A DNA stretch of 33,460 nucleotides from Bacteroidales bacterium (lineage in GTDB: Bacteria > Bacteroidota > Bacteroidia > Bacteroidales > UBA12077). Position 1 is the first letter of the stretch, and every line of letters starts with the position of its first letter. The notes under the pieces are model-generated. The model ran no database searches. It had not been told where the DNA came from and worked only from the letters and a program-made list of their open reading frames with translations. Positions 5,185 through 32,641 of the stretch are shown here, piece after piece. The position numbers were made by a program, and so were the translations under genes. Where the stretch lies: contig DAOUTQ010000017.1 of the NCBI GenBank assembly GCA_030668615.1, positions 1 through 33,460 on the forward strand, read 5' to 3'.

Positions 5185-5216
5185 TTTGATTTACAGCTAT
5201 TATTTTTGTAAATTTG
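5185..5216 (+). promoter_or_regulatory. Candidate Bacteroidota primary-sigma promoter for the DsrE-like lipoprotein
   Basis: TTTG (5185-5188), 20 nt spacer, TAAATTTG (5209-5216), matching TTTG-N19-20-TAnnTTTG. Confidence 0.55.
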
Positions 5217-5247
5217 GTATGTGTGTTATAAACCTAATACTTCAGAC

Positions 5248-5713
5248 TATGAAAATGCTAAATCTTTTATTAATTGCATTTCTACTGACATTTACTTCTT
5301 GTCAAAATGCTGAAAAGCCTGAAATAGCTGATCTGGTTAAACCTTCACAGCAAACTGTTAAAGATGGTGTGTTTTTACATATTAGCAGTGGATATGAAAA
5401 TCCTAAAAAAGTTTTAATGGCCTTAAACCTTGCGGTTAAAATGGTTGAAACAAAGGACGTATGCCTCTTCTTCGACATAGAAGGAGTTAAGCTCTTAACA
5501 AAAACAGCTGAAGATATACAAATGGAAAACCTTATGTCTTTGCATGAAGCTATAAATAAATTAACCGAACAAAATGTTTTGATTATTACTTGTCCTATAT
5601 GCACAAAAGCAGCAGGAATAAGTCCAGAGGATTATAAGGAAGGAGTTATTATAGATGAAAAAGAGAATTTTTTTGATTTCACAAAAGGCCGAATTTTATC
5701 ACTTACTTATTAA
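5248..5713 (+). CDS. DsrE/DsrF-like family lipoprotein
   Basis: Start at ATG 5248 gives a lipoprotein signal MKMLNLLLIAFLLTFTSCQN; the body (VFLHISSGYENPKKVLMALNLAVKMVETKDVCLFFDIEGVKLL...ITCPICTKAAGI) has a DsrE-like pattern. Confidence 0.7.
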
Positions 5714-5736
5714 AAAAGATATTTTTAATTTTAATT

Positions 5737-5772
5737 AACTTCCGAAGTAATAAAGCTTCGGAAGTTTTTTTA
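5737..5772 (+). terminator. Intrinsic terminator downstream of the DsrE-like gene
   Basis: AACTTCCGAAG (5737-5747) / CTTCGGAAGTT (5756-5766): 11-bp perfect stem followed by a T run. Confidence 0.9.
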
Positions 5773-5817
5773 GTATTTATTATGAAAAAAGCTATAGTTT
5801 AAGTTATGAGTAGTTAT

Positions 5818-5848
5818 TTTGATTTTGAGTTTTTTAAATTTACATTTG
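5818..5848 (+). promoter_or_regulatory. Candidate promoter for the asnA leader transcript
   Basis: TTTG (5818-5821), exactly 19 nt spacer, TACATTTG (5841-5848), matching Bacteroidota TTTG-N19-TAnnTTTG; lies about 20 nt before leader ORF 1. Confidence 0.65.
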
Positions 5849-5868
5849 TTAAATAAATTTCTGAAGAA

Positions 5869-5943
5869 ATGATTCAAATTACTAATAATAATCTTTTAAA
5901 TAATTCTGTAAATAATTATATACAGACAAGAAGGCTATTGTAG
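5869..5943 (+). CDS. Asn-rich leader peptide 1 of the asnA attenuator (MIQITNNNLLNNSVNNYIQTRRLL*)
   Basis: 24-codon ORF with 7 AAT (Asn) codons, positioned between promoter and terminator 1 upstream of asnA; not in the ORF track because of its size. Confidence 0.8.
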   Translation: MIQITNNNLLNNSVNNYIQTRRLL

Positions 5944-5977
5944 TAATTAAAGATATAACGTTAAAATCAAAGCCTTC
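5930..5977 (+). promoter_or_regulatory. Antiterminator pairing 1
   Basis: GAAGGCT(A)TTG (5930-5940, last codons of leader 1) is complementary to CAAAGCCTTC (5968-5977), i.e. the 5' arm of terminator 1; one bulged A. Confidence 0.75.
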
Positions 5978-5998
5978 CCAAACCGGAAGGCTTTTTTT
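5971..5998 (+). terminator. Attenuator terminator 1
   Basis: AGCCTTCC (5971-5978) / GGAAGGCT (5985-5992) followed by TTTTTT. Confidence 0.9.
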
Positions 5999-6014
5999 GT
6001 TTAAATCAGTTATA

Positions 6015-6077
6015 ATGATAAATAAAATACAAATTAATAATATCAATAATAATGGTCCTCCTCTGCAGGGAAGGTAA
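6015..6077 (+). CDS. Asn-rich leader peptide 2 of the asnA attenuator (MINKIQINNINNNGPPLQGR*)
   Basis: 20-codon ORF with 6 AAT (Asn) codons immediately after terminator 1 and before terminator 2. Confidence 0.75.
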   Translation: MINKIQINNINNNGPPLQGR

Positions 6078-6109
6078 TAATCTCGTTATGTTTATTTAAC
6101 CCTTCTCTG
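6066..6109 (+). promoter_or_regulatory. Antiterminator pairing 2
   Basis: CAGGGAAGG (6066-6074, last codons of leader 2) pairs with CCTTCTCTG (6101-6109, 5' half of terminator 2): 9 consecutive pairs including one G.U. Confidence 0.72.
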
Positions 6110-6132
6110 ATATTCAGTTGAAGGGTTTTTTA
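6098..6132 (+). terminator. Attenuator terminator 2
   Basis: AACCCTTC (6098-6105) / GAAGGGTT (6120-6127), inner stem CTGA/TCAG, followed by a T run. Confidence 0.9.
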
Positions 6133-6163
6133 TTTATATGTTTAACCCTTAAATTTAATTAAA

Positions 6164-7144
6164 ATGTTAACAACAATTAAAACACATCAACCGATTCCTG
6201 CTGGAGTCGAAACAGAAAAGGTCATTTTTGAATTGAAAGACTATTTCAAAAAAAGTTTATCTCAAAATCTAAATTTAATGGAAGTGATGTCCCCATTATT
6301 CGTAACTTCAGGTACAGGAATTAATGATGACCTTAATGGAATTGAAAAGCCGGTAAGGTTTATAGCAAAATCATTTCCAGACAGAAAACTGGAAATTGTG
6401 CAATCTTTGGCAAAATGGAAGAGAATAAAATTAGGAGAGATGAATATCCCACATGGTCAAGGGATTATAACAGATATGAAAGCGTTAAGACCTGATGAAA
6501 TCGTTAGCCCTATTCATTCAATTCTGGTTGATCAGTGGGACTGGGAAAAAAGAATTTCTGAAAAGGAAAGGAGTTTAGATTATTTAAAATTTGAAGTCGC
6601 TAAAATTTATAATGCAATAAAAAAAACAGAGGAATATATAGCTAAATTATACCCAAAAATGAAAATGTTTTTACCTGATGAAATAACTTTTATTTATTCT
6701 GAAGATTTGCAATACAGTTATCCAAAACTAACTCCAAAGGAGAGAGAAAATCTTGTTGCAAAAGATTATGGAGCTGTTTTCATTATGGGTATCGGACACG
6801 AATTAGCAGATGGAGTTCCTCACGATTTACGTGCTCCTGATTACGACGATTGGTCGACATCTACAACTGAGAGATATAAAGGATTAAACGGAGATATTAT
6901 TGTCTATAATCCGGTTTTGAAAGATGCGTTTGAAATTTCATCCATGGGAATAAGAGTTGATAAAAAAGCGCTTTTGAAGCAATTAAAATTAACAAATACT
7001 GAAAGTCGCACAGAACTATCTTTTCACAAGAAATTACTAAATGACGAATTACCCTTTTCAATTGGTGGTGGAATAGGACAATCGAGGTTAGCAATGCTTC
7101 TTCTACGAAAAAAGCATATTAGTATAGTTCAGGCGGAAATTTGA
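6164..7144 (+). CDS. asnA: Aspartate-ammonia ligase (asparagine synthetase A)
   Basis: 326 aa, class II aaRS-like AsnA signature segments: HGQGIITDMKALRPDE, HSILVDQWDWEK, GHELADGVPHDLRAPDYDDW, LPFSIGGGIGQSRLAMLLLRKKHI. Confidence 0.95.
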   Translation: MLTTIKTHQPIPAGVETEKVIFELKDYFKKSLSQNLNLMEVMSPLFVTSGTGINDDLNGIEKPVRFIAKSFPDRKLEIVQSLAKWKRIKLGEMNIPHGQGIITDMKALRPDEIVSPIHSILVDQWDWEKRISEKERSLDYLKFEVAKIYNAIKKTEEYIAKLYPKMKMFLPDEITFIYSEDLQYSYPKLTPKERENLVAKDYGAVFIMGIGHELADGVPHDLRAPDYDDWSTSTTERYKGLNGDIIVYNPVLKDAFEISSMGIRVDKKALLKQLKLTNTESRTELSFHKKLLNDELPFSIGGGIGQSRLAMLLLRKKHISIVQAEI

Positions 7145-11273: not shown

Positions 11274-12641
11274 TTAAAATATTAGTGTAAAAGTAGTTTC
11301 TTTTATAGGTTCTGATTTTACAGAAATACTACCACCATGCAAACGCATTATTTGTCGTGAAAGACTTAATCCGATTCCGGAACCATTTTCTTTGCTTGTG
11401 AAAAATGGTATAAATATTTCTTCAATAAGATTTTCAGGTATGCCATTCCCGTTATCTTTAATACTTATTGTTGGATGCCGATCATTATTTATCCAACTCT
11501 TTATCTCAATATTTTTACTTTTAGGTAGAACATTACTATTAACAGCATCTGTAGCGTTATTTATTAGGTTTAAAAGCACATGTTCTATAAGACTTTTGTC
11601 ACATAAAATATTTATATCTTCTTGATCAACATGGGATTTAAAAGAAATTTCTTTTTTGGCAAGCTCATCTTTTTTTAGAAACACAATTCCCTTAATTATA
11701 TCAGCAAGATTAACTTCTTCAAATTTTGGAGTAGGAAGTTTTGTGAGACTTCTGAATTTATTCACAAAATCAAGTAATGCCTTGCCTCGTTCTTCTATTA
11801 GCTCAAGACCTGTAACAGTCTGTTGAATGGTGTTGTCTGAAATATCGTTGGCAGTAACTAATGTGCTATTCGTTTTGAAAAAACCTGCAATAGTACCTGT
11901 TAATGATGTAACTGGTGTCACTGAATTAATAATTTCGTGGGTAAGTACTCTGATCAATTTTTGCCACGAATCCATTTCTTTTTCGTCCAGCTCATTTTTG
12001 ATATCCTGAAAAGAGATTAATTTGATTTCTTTCTGAGCAATTTTAAATATTGACATTTTAATAGCCAAATGTTGTATTTCTTTTCCTGAATTTAACACAA
12101 TTACTTTTTGCTCATTAAAACTCATCTTCTTCACGATGTTGGTTAAGCCTAATTTAACTTTATCCAAAACATCAATTGAGTTTAATACTTGTAAATTCAG
12201 AATATCTTTAGCTGCTTGATTTACAATTTCAACTTTCCCGGTTTGATCAAAAGCAAGTAATCCAATTCCAACATGCTGAACGATATATTGTGTATATCTA
12301 AGCTGATTTTCTTTATCTATTCTTACTTCTCTTACAATATCACCAATCTCATTAAGAAAATATCCTAATTCATTAAACGGATAAACTCTTGATGGGGAAA
12401 AATACATAGTTGGATTGTTATCTTTAATATATTCAAGCATTCTTTTTAAATCATCTCTTCTTTTAAGAATATATTTAATTAGGTTCCATGTTTGTATAGA
12501 AACAAGAATAAAAAGGGAAGATATGCAATATAAATAATTCGTTTTAAACGATAAAAATGCAAATAGTAAAGAAGATAATACGATAAGTATTACCCTAACA
12601 ATAATCCCATAATAATATTTATTAGAGTTCATATTTTTCAA
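11274..12641 (-). CDS. NtrY-like sensor histidine kinase (module 1)
   Basis: Two N-terminal TM segments, PAS-like region, LIRVLTHEIINSVTPVTSL H box, LLNLINNATDAV, DNGNGIPENL, GSGIGLSLSRQIMRLHGGSISVKS. Confidence 0.93.
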   Translation of the reverse strand: MKNMNSNKYYYGIIVRVILIVLSSLLFAFLSFKTNYLYCISSLFILVSIQTWNLIKYILKRRDDLKRMLEYIKDNNPTMYFSPSRVYPFNELGYFLNEIGDIVREVRIDKENQLRYTQYIVQHVGIGLLAFDQTGKVEIVNQAAKDILNLQVLNSIDVLDKVKLGLTNIVKKMSFNEQKVIVLNSGKEIQHLAIKMSIFKIAQKEIKLISFQDIKNELDEKEMDSWQKLIRVLTHEIINSVTPVTSLTGTIAGFFKTNSTLVTANDISDNTIQQTVTGLELIEERGKALLDFVNKFRSLTKLPTPKFEEVNLADIIKGIVFLKKDELAKKEISFKSHVDQEDINILCDKSLIEHVLLNLINNATDAVNSNVLPKSKNIEIKSWINNDRHPTISIKDNGNGIPENLIEEIFIPFFTSKENGSGIGLSLSRQIMRLHGGSISVKSEPIKETTFTLIF

Positions 12642-30228: not shown

Positions 30229-32641
30229 ATGCTTAAACATAATTTAAAGATAGCATTAAGGAATATTATTAAAAACTGGAAATATTCGCTTATAAATATC
30301 GGTGGACTCGCCATTGGACTGGCAAGTTTCGTTTTGATTGTTTTGTATATAAATGATGAGCTAAAATACGATTTGCATCACGAAAATGCTGAAAATATAT
30401 ATCGTGTAAATAGATTATATAATAGCAATAATGTGGATGAAGATGCAGCGACTGTTTCATTTCCTGCAGGACCGACTTTAGTAATGGATTATCCGGGGAT
30501 CGTAAAAAGTCAGGTTAGGTTCTTTAACCAGTTAAGAAATCAATGGTTTTTTGATTATCATAAAAGCGATGATGAGATAATACGTTTTAACGAACCACGA
30601 TTCATGTTGGCTGATTCTACTGTATTTGATATTTTCACGTTTCCTTTTATTGAAGGAAATCCTGAAACTGCTCTCGACAGACCTAATACAATTGTAGTAA
30701 CGGAATCAACCGCAAAAAGATATTTTGGCAATGAGCCTGCAATTGGTAAGGTGCTTCGGGTTGAGGAAGGGCTTGATTTTGAAATTACAGGCGTAATAGA
30801 AGATCTTCCAACTCAATCTCATTTTAAGATTGATATTTTAGGATCACTTAACACTTTTCGCCAGTTTAATAGAAACGGACAATTTCCTCAAACCTGGATC
30901 TGGAATCCTTGTTGGACTTATGTTCAACTTGAAGATGGAGTAAATCCAAATACTTTGGATGAAAAATTCCCTGAATTTTATCTGAATCATTATATTGACT
31001 TGAAAGATGCTGATGTAACTCTTTATTTGCAATCGCTTACTGATATTCATTTAAAATCACATCATTTATACGAAATGCGACCAAATAGTAACATTGTTTA
31101 TGTATATATTTTATCAATAGTAGCTGCAATTATACTTATGCTTGCATGCATTAACTTTATGAATTTAGCTACAGCAAGTTCAGCAGGAAGAGCTAAGGAA
31201 ATAGGATTAAAGAAAGTGTTTGGTAGTTTAAAAAAGAAATTGGTTTTACAGTTCTTAGGTGAAGCTGTTGTGCAAAGTTTTATTGCAATGCTTATTGCAT
31301 TAATATTGGTTGAGCTTCTATTACCCGGTTTCAATAATTTTACTGGCAAAAACATTATATCAGCTTTTTTAGTTGAGCTAAAAATTGTTGGGTTTATATT
31401 TGCTGTAGCTTTGGTAGTTGGGATAATAGCAGGTGTTTACCCTGCGTTTATTCTTTCATCATTTAAACCATTAAAGGTTTTAAGAGGATCTTTAAGTAAT
31501 GGTGCAAAATCAGGTAAAGCAAGAAAAGTATTAGTGATTGTTCAATTTTCTATTTCAATTAGTCTTATCATAGGTAGTTTAGTTGTATATGCACAATTAG
31601 AATTTCTAAGAAATGCTGAATTAGGATTTAATAAGGATCATATAATAAACATTGAACGAGTTGGTCCCTTATTTAGAAATTATGAGGCTTTTAAGCAAGA
31701 ATTATTAAGTCATAAAGATGTTGAATACGTAACTGGGGCAGAAGACTATTTAGGAATAAATCATAATACGCGTGATTACGAAATTGAAGGCTTAACCTGG
31801 GCAAAGGTTTTATATCCCTGCATTTTTAGTTGATTGGGATTTTGTAGAGACTTTTGATATTAAAGTTGTTGAGGGACGTGCGTTTTCAAGAAAATTTCCG
31901 GGTGATACCATTAATGCTGTTATGATTAATGAAACAATGGTCAGTGATTTAGGATGGACAAACGAAGAAGCAATTGGTAAAAAGATTATTTCTCGTGATG
32001 GTGATGAAAGTGTGATTGGTGTTTATAAAGATTTTCATGCTATGTCATTACATCGTCCGGTAAATAAATTTATATTAGATATGCCAAGACGACCGGTTTT
32101 TGCTTCTCGTGTAATTTCAATCCGATTTAGTTCAAATAATTATAAAGAAGTATTAAAGCACATTGAAAATACTTGGACCGAATTTGTTCCAACTCGCCCA
32201 TTTGAGTATCAGTTTTTTGATCAACAATTGGATGAACTTTACATTGATGAGTTAAGATTTGGTCGATTCTCACTTATGTTAACAATCCTAGCAATTATTA
32301 TTGCCAGTATGGGATTGGTTGGATTAACATCATTTCTTGCAGAGCAACGTACAAAAGAAATTGGAATTAGAAGAGCGTTAGGATCTTCTTCCTGGGCAAT
32401 AATTAAATTAATGGCCAAAGAATTTTTAATACTACTTTTAGTAGCCAATTTAATTTCTTGGCCAATTACATATTATTTCACTAATAATTGGCTGGAAAGT
32501 TATGCAAAACATATTTCAACAAACTGGTGGTTATTTATAATGTCTGGTATATTAACAATGTTTATTGCAATGACAATTATTGCTTATAGAGCTTACAAAA
32601 CGGCCTTGTTAAACCCTGCACAAACTTTGCGTTACGAATAG
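30229..32641 (+). pseudogene. MacB/FtsX-type ABC transporter permease 5, split by a single frameshift (ORFs 30229-31833 and 31922-32641)
   Basis: The N-terminal ORF ends ...WAKVLYPCIFS*; the +1 frame from 31817 continues PAFLVDWDFVETFDIKVVEGRAFSRKFPGDTINAVMINETM... directly into the second ORF, which carries the second FtsX half and ends NPAQTLRYE. Confidence 0.88.

Follow-up and report, generated by a model that had tools for sequence, protein, structure and literature searches.

A candidate tandem asparagine-codon attenuator upstream of asnA in a Bacteroidales bacterium

Organization of the asnA leader region

The window analyzed here is a stretch of 33,460 nucleotides from a Bacteroidales bacterium (assembly GCA_030668615.1, contig DAOUTQ010000017.1). 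Its intergenic region at positions 5714 to 6163, with a GC content of about 22%, contains the terminator of the upstream gene, a single promoter-like site, and two units that each consist of an Asn-rich mini-ORF and a terminator, followed by asnA (Table 1). The leader of 383 nt folds 3.5 standard deviations better than its shuffles. The gene 3′ of asnA lies on the opposite strand, and asnA is therefore monocistronic in the window. The small upstream ORF (5186 to 5713) has a lipoprotein-like start and a DsrE-like look; it carries its own strong terminator (around 5737 to 5774) and so lies outside the asnA transcript.

An earlier note on this DNA had described the promoter, the two Asn-rich mini-ORFs with their terminators, and asnA. 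Each of these elements is present in the window, and the leader peptides, Asn counts (7/24 and 6/20), and codons given there are exact. The accompanying statement that every Asn is encoded by AAT is correct within the window (13 of 13 codons) and does not extend to a general feature, as relatives often use AAC (93 of 408 Asn codons).

Table 1. Features of the asnA leader region (positions in the window)
Feature	Position	Strand	Sequence and remarks
Bacteroidota-type promoter-like site	5818..5848	+	TTTG-N19-TACATTTG; TTTG at 5818-5821, then N19, TACATTTG at 5841-5848; sole site found for a unit 1-unit 2-asnA transcript
Leader ORF 1 (type 1)	5869..5943	+	MIQITNNNLLNNSVNNYIQTRRLL, stop TAG; 7 Asn in 24 residues; 34 asnA loci carry Asn-rich leaders of type 1
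Region 1 of unit 1	5877..5897	+	Asn codons plus CTTTT; pairs with region 2 in the predicted fold
Apical hairpin of unit 1	5905..5926	+	TCTGTA...TACAGA, around the last Asn codons; from fold and arm-swap energies
Region 2 of unit 1	5929..5937	+	Arm AGAAGGCTA of the antiterminator, with region 3 as its partner; lies at the end of leader 1; the 1:2 pairing reaches to about 5948
Terminator 1 (regions 3 and 4)	5969..5998	+	AAAGCCTTCC-CAAACC-GGAAGGCTTT plus T run; hairpin itself 5969-5994; compensatory changes
Leader ORF 2 (type 2)	6015..6077	+	MINKIQINNINNNGPPLQGR, stop TAA; 6 Asn in 20 residues; 30 type-2 leaders upstream of asnA
Pro-Pro codons of leader 2	6057..6062	+	CCT CCT, immediately 3′ of the Asn run, with region 2 following closely; proposed brake
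Region 2 of unit 2	6065..6075	+	Antiterminator arm GCAGGGAAGGT; extends to within 2 nt of the last base of the stop codon
Terminator 2 (regions 3 and 4)	6098..6131	+	AACCCTTCTCTGA...TCAGTTGAAGGGTT plus T run; hairpin itself 6098-6127
asnA	6164..7144	+	Aspartate-ammonia ligase, putative regulated gene; Pfam AsnA PF03590, 323.8 bits

Two ATG-initiated ORFs as rich in Asn as these occurred in 0 of 2,000 dinucleotide shuffles of the 450-nt intergenic region, and a single such ORF occurred in 0.15%. A scan of 177 kb of strands from the organism's own genome returned just one further ORF this rich in Asn (L113), which looks antisense to a gene and has no terminator-like hairpin in the next 400 nt. 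No second Asn-leader unit was detected in this genome with model R1, which strongly matches unit 1 of asnA only; the other R1 matches that were inspected look like plain terminators. An artefact of composition was rejected on the strength of the shuffles together with AAC usage, covariation, and the Pro-Pro pattern (see below).

The genome also encodes AsnRS (624 bits). No AsnB over the family cutoff was found in it (assembly 88% complete), and AsnA therefore seems to be its sole recognized dedicated asparagine synthetase at this level of completeness. Regulation of asnA by Asn fits the physiology of such a genome. Across the window's family, 13 of 25 genomes were found to have asnA. Roughly half (window genus G003, G006, G016, and others) are without it, several of them at least 96% complete; most are also without AsnB over the cutoff, and asparagine may perhaps be obtained there by tRNA-dependent amidation or uptake. 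No convincing Asn leader was found on the AsnB-like genes of this family.

Conservation and types of leader units

We collected 172 asnA loci from whole-genome relatives, a named genome collection, a covariance-model scan of the phylum (2 loci), and further genomes of the order (60 loci). Upstream regions were scanned and then inspected by eye; 7 of the 172 are cut by contig ends, which left 165 scorable loci. An Asn leader followed by a terminator lies upstream of 40 of these (24 tandem, including L022 and L032, which are cut within unit 1, and 16 single), and 125 have none. The earlier note had suggested aligning the regions upstream of asnA in related genomes to look for conserved Asn-rich mini-ORFs and terminators; both are kept at these 40 loci, and the lack of conservation that would have spoken against its proposal is not seen. 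The loci with the element belong to the window's family, to other families of the order, and to the Hymenobacteraceae. In the window's family, the tandem form is present at all nine loci with enough upstream sequence, and four with incomplete upstream sequence agree.

The element clusters strongly on the AsnA tree (8 to 11 changes, versus about 41 with shuffled labels), most carriers falling in one subclade that has the Hymenobacteraceae inside it, plus a few other lineages. Many Bacteroidota asnA genes are without the element, and it is absent from the sampled asnA genes of Bacteroides/Prevotella, Treponema, and Lentisphaeria. The leader peptides diverge across lineages yet keep their Asn runs, written with both AAT and AAC: among 56 automatically called leaders, Asn accounts for 31% of residues (315 AAT and 93 AAC codons). 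Two loci show further features. A possible additional single unit, counted as none, lies about 120 nt before asnA of Rhinopithecimicrobium faecis (L041); it consists of MSNIYNSLLNYPCNLAGS and, after it, the terminator TGCCTTTCG/CGAAAGGCA. In a sister-genus genome (L015; G023:C289), an AsnB-like gene (MCGFAVYTG...) lies 23 nt 3′ of asnA on the same strand, so that an asnA-asnB operon may be under the control of the tandem attenuator in this genome; this arrangement was not seen in L013, L014, or L016.

The units fall into two distinct types in a fixed order, the first unit of a tandem being type 1 and the second type 2; the earlier note mentions neither the types nor the Pro-Pro motif of the second. 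In type-1 leaders, the Asn runs are interspersed (e.g., MIQITNNNLSNNSVNNIQTGRLL, MNNLFNNNFSNNSFNNNWKIWEGIV, and MTTLQNNLFNNNSNNNLLRIGKAIV), an apical hairpin encloses the last Asn codons, and region 2, usually GGAAGGCT, comes near the 3′ end of the ORF. In type-2 leaders, the Asn codons form a single compact run, Pro-Pro comes next (MILIKINNNNNNNRPPPQGR, MLQRINNNNNNRPPPPGMVT, and MRINNQNINNNNNRPP-stop), and region 2 directly follows. Of the single units, those of the Hymenobacteraceae and others are type 1, and those of L021, L181, and L187 are type 2. Pro-Pro within 5 codons of the Asn run is found in 26 of 30 type-2 leaders versus 0 of 34 type-1 leaders, and at several type-2 loci the ORF ends in Pro-Pro-stop just before region 2. 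All four third bases are used in the Pro-Pro codons (thinned set: A, 11; T, 10; G, 6; C, 5), and CCNCCN occurs off-frame in just 1 to 2 of the 30 type-2 leaders. The mixed third bases and the in-frame CCNCCN point to selection on the peptide, beyond a C-rich RNA arm. With third codon bases free and the pattern in frame, it is unlikely that Pro-Pro is a by-product of such an arm.

Alternative RNA pairing and the predicted ribosome switch

Owing to gap placement, plain MAFFT alignment with RNAalifold did not recover the 1:2 and apical stems, and we therefore compared duplex energies of each unit's own arms with those of arms swapped between species (20,000 permutations, which ignore species relatedness, so that the figures are a guide). 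Own arms paired more stably for regions 1 and 2 (−11.0 versus −8.7 kcal/mol), for the apical hairpin (−7.4 versus −3.0 kcal/mol), and for regions 2 and 3 in both the 34 type-1 units (−13.4 versus −11.2 kcal/mol) and the 27 type-2 units (−12.8 versus −8.6 kcal/mol); in each case, 0 of 20,000 permutations were as good. RNAalifold finds the terminator in type 1, with compensatory changes at two pairs, and picks the antiterminator itself in type 2.

The variety of arms across deep lineages is a stronger argument, on the sequences compared, than the permutation figures. The arms of the apical hairpin are replaced in relatives by CGAATAA/TTATTCG, TTTCAAC/GTTGAAA, CCAAT/ATTGG, and others. The in-ORF arm changes together with the two terminator arms: CCCGGAGGT with GACCCTCCGG and CCGGAGGGTT in L183, AGGCGGT with AAGCCCGCC and GGCGGGCTT in L021 and L181, and AGCAGGCTA with AAAGCCTGCA and TGCGGGCTTT in L176. 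Mutually exclusive 2:3 and 3:4 stems were thus found, with compensatory change and with the region 2 arm lying within the ORF or at its end. The 2:3 pairing or the stems are weak in a few units (L184, L185, and unit 2 of L188), as is terminator 1 of L018.

We then folded transcripts lacking region 4 with 27 nt blocked by a ribosome. The predicted capture of region 3 by the leader was 0.82 with the ribosome in the middle of the Asn run versus 0.31 with the ribosome at the stop codon for type 1, and 0.77 versus 0.39 for type 2. In the window, unit 1 switched from 0.86 (Asn stall) to 0.20 (stop codon), and unit 2 switched weakly in the simulation (0.77 versus 0.48). Without any ribosome, region 3 was often captured too (0.60 to 0.73, intermediate to high), and leader translation would therefore be needed for efficient termination. 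In full-length RNA at equilibrium, the terminator still wins in most units despite an Asn stall, so the switch would have to be kinetic, decided cotranscriptionally as in classical attenuators.

The promoter-like motif TAnnTTTG lies 38 to 49 nt before the first Asn codon at 14 of 34 type-1 loci and 52 to 61 nt before it at all three type-2-only loci. At none of the loci scanned does it occur in the stretch separating the units or in that from unit 2 to asnA. The lack of a visible TAnnTTTG between the units, noted earlier for the window, extends to every locus scanned, and without an internal TAnnTTTG, a single transcript would pass two checkpoints in series.

Proposed mechanism, alternatives, and related systems

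Together, these results suggest, with a probability that we put at roughly 0.9, that asnA is controlled by a tandem, Asn-specific, ribosome-mediated transcription attenuator. The earlier note had proposed that a shortage of charged tRNA-Asn is read at two serial attenuation steps, and this is supported by the conserved leaders and terminators, the alternative stems, and the blocked-ribosome folding. The features themselves (Asn-rich ORFs, terminators, covarying alternative stems, serial layout, and Pro-Pro conservation) are seen by comparison across loci; leader translation, stalling, kinetics, multiplication, and the brake are steps that we infer. One promoter would give an RNA whose first 300 nt hold both Asn-rich leader ORFs. 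When charged tRNA-Asn is plentiful, the ribosome would run to the end of the leader and cover region 2, leaving region 3 to pair with region 4; transcription would then end at terminator 1, or at terminator 2 once the first has been passed. When charged tRNA-Asn is scarce, the ribosome would stall in the Asn run upstream of region 2, regions 2 and 3 would pair, and RNA polymerase would read through. Because both units must be passed, basal leakage and induction would each multiply, a multiplied induction ratio being the logical consequence of the series layout.

Polyproline and Pro-stop contexts slow ribosomes. In unit 2, the Pro-Pro after the Asn run, or at the stop codon, would probably slow the ribosome over region 2, keeping region 2 covered and making termination more reliable in Asn-replete cells; an Asn stall a few codons before Pro-Pro would leave region 2 free. 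We suggest tentatively, giving the idea somewhat less than an even chance, that unit 2 is an attenuator subtype with a built-in ribosome brake and that, placed after the brakeless type 1, it forms a two-stage cascade for the same signal with differently tuned checkpoints.

Only one of the two units might be an Asn attenuator, the other being a relic or answering to another signal, which for unit 2 could be slow translation at Pro-Pro and hence charged tRNA-Pro or EF-P activity. Either type can do without its partner, given the 16 loci with a single unit of one type or the other; Pro-Pro is confined to type 2, and the mgtCBR leader provides a precedent for two signals (PMC3641672). However, at every tandem locus the leaders of both units are Asn-rich, and the coupling of regions 2, 3, and 4 is preserved in nearly all of them. 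Moreover, Pro-Pro follows the Asn run beside region 2, where a stall would favor termination, the opposite of what an inducer responding to Pro starvation would do. We therefore consider a one-unit attenuator unlikely.

It is much less probable still that the AAT-rich stretches are an untranslated AT-rich spacer, with the hairpins serving as ordinary terminators or RNA stability elements and Asn arising as a by-product of base composition. DNA of about 22% GC readily yields AATAAT runs, and the leader ORFs are predictions from sequence. Such a spacer does not account for two Asn-rich ORFs absent from all 2,000 shuffles, for Asn runs that persist with AAC in G+C-richer relatives (L013, L014, and L016), for the in-frame conservation of Pro-Pro, or for a region 2 arm within the ORF that tracks the terminator arms. 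T-boxes in Firmicutes control amino acid biosynthesis genes of the same sort as asnA, and the leader RNA is structured, both of which would suit direct sensing of tRNA-Asn or asparagine by a T-box-like or riboswitch-like element with incidental ORFs. We regard this as scarcely credible: no T-box or riboswitch match was found in Rfam at the gathering score or at E ≤ 5, the attenuator stems account for the structured parts, and the peptides stay Asn-rich while the remaining sequence diverges.

Leader-peptide attenuation of amino acid operons is classical, and the proposed tandem attenuator is of this known kind. Like the enterobacterial trp, his, thr, phe, and leu attenuators, it combines an ORF rich in codons for the end product, 1:2, 2:3, and 3:4 stems, an intrinsic terminator, and a biosynthetic gene downstream; unlike them (Rfam Trp_leader, His_leader, Thr_leader, Phe_leader, and Leu_leader), it has Asn codons, two serial units, Pro-Pro in unit 2, and a Bacteroidota host. 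None of the Rfam leader families (Trp, His, Thr, Leu, Phe, and Bacteroid-trp RF01692, the last listed in PMC2864571) matched the window at the gathering score. The best match at relaxed thresholds was Phe_leader (30.7 bits, versus a gathering score of 55) at 5945 to 6000, covering terminator 1, and the T-box covariance model had no match in the region. The closest tandem is that of Salmonella mgtCBR (mgtM and mgtP), whose leader RNA likewise combines two short ORFs and their attenuators. Those attenuators read two signals, ATP and charged tRNA-Pro, and have been termed a singular example (PMC3641672), whereas both asnA units are Asn-rich, with the Pro-Pro of unit 2 leaving a second input possible.

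Within the phylum, leader-peptide attenuation has been inferred for amino acid operons of Flavobacterium psychrophilum, likewise at amino acid biosynthesis genes, with no asparagine case named in the main text (PMC9723704), and B. thetaiotaomicron is reported to have leader-like sORFs (PMC7366714). Neither asparagine nor asnA figures among the cases in the main text of a survey of premature terminators (PMC2965389). We found no earlier Asn leader attenuator or same-signal tandem in the open-access PMC papers searched, and Asn specificity and the same-signal tandem are apparently not described before. If the proposal is correct, asparagine joins the amino acids sensed by leader-peptide attenuation, the locus provides a conserved case of two same-signal attenuators in series, for which the layout predicts quantitatively that readthrough multiplies, and the Pro-Pro motif of unit 2 would add a new component to the known attenuator repertoire. 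It would also place a detailed attenuator in the Bacteroidota, a phylum in which this type of control, though inferred, has seldom been analyzed in depth.

In other Bacteroidota (L134, L138, L141, L142, L143, L144, L154, and L155; around locus position 1500), the phylum scan with the unit-1 covariance model also picked out leaders for Thr, Ile, and Ile/Val in front of cognate genes; these are single units as far as inspected. Examples are a Thr leader (MNFIITTTTISTTTTISSCRKVCL) before an aspartokinase-like gene, an Ile leader (MSNLNNIIIVINIIAIQQ) before an ilvA-like gene, and an Ile/Val leader (MMQISIIITSVVVVNVIHTSASGML), the downstream genes being named from their sequences only. Like the asnA element, these have a short codon-biased ORF, an in-ORF arm, a terminator, and a cognate biosynthesis gene; the amino acids differ. 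Judging by these matches, leader-peptide attenuation looks widespread in the phylum, with asnA as its Asn, tandem version.

Elsewhere in the window, positions 11274 to 32641 hold a long array of large membrane permeases (about 790 to 810 amino acids, FtsX/MacB-like by eye), interleaved with three opposite-strand pairs of a sensor kinase (about 450 amino acids) and an NtrC-like regulator (about 455 amino acids). The array looks like one module repeatedly duplicated. One of its permeases appears to be split at 31833 to 31922 into two ORFs (30229 to 31833 and 31922 to 32641), possibly by a frameshift or as a pseudogene.
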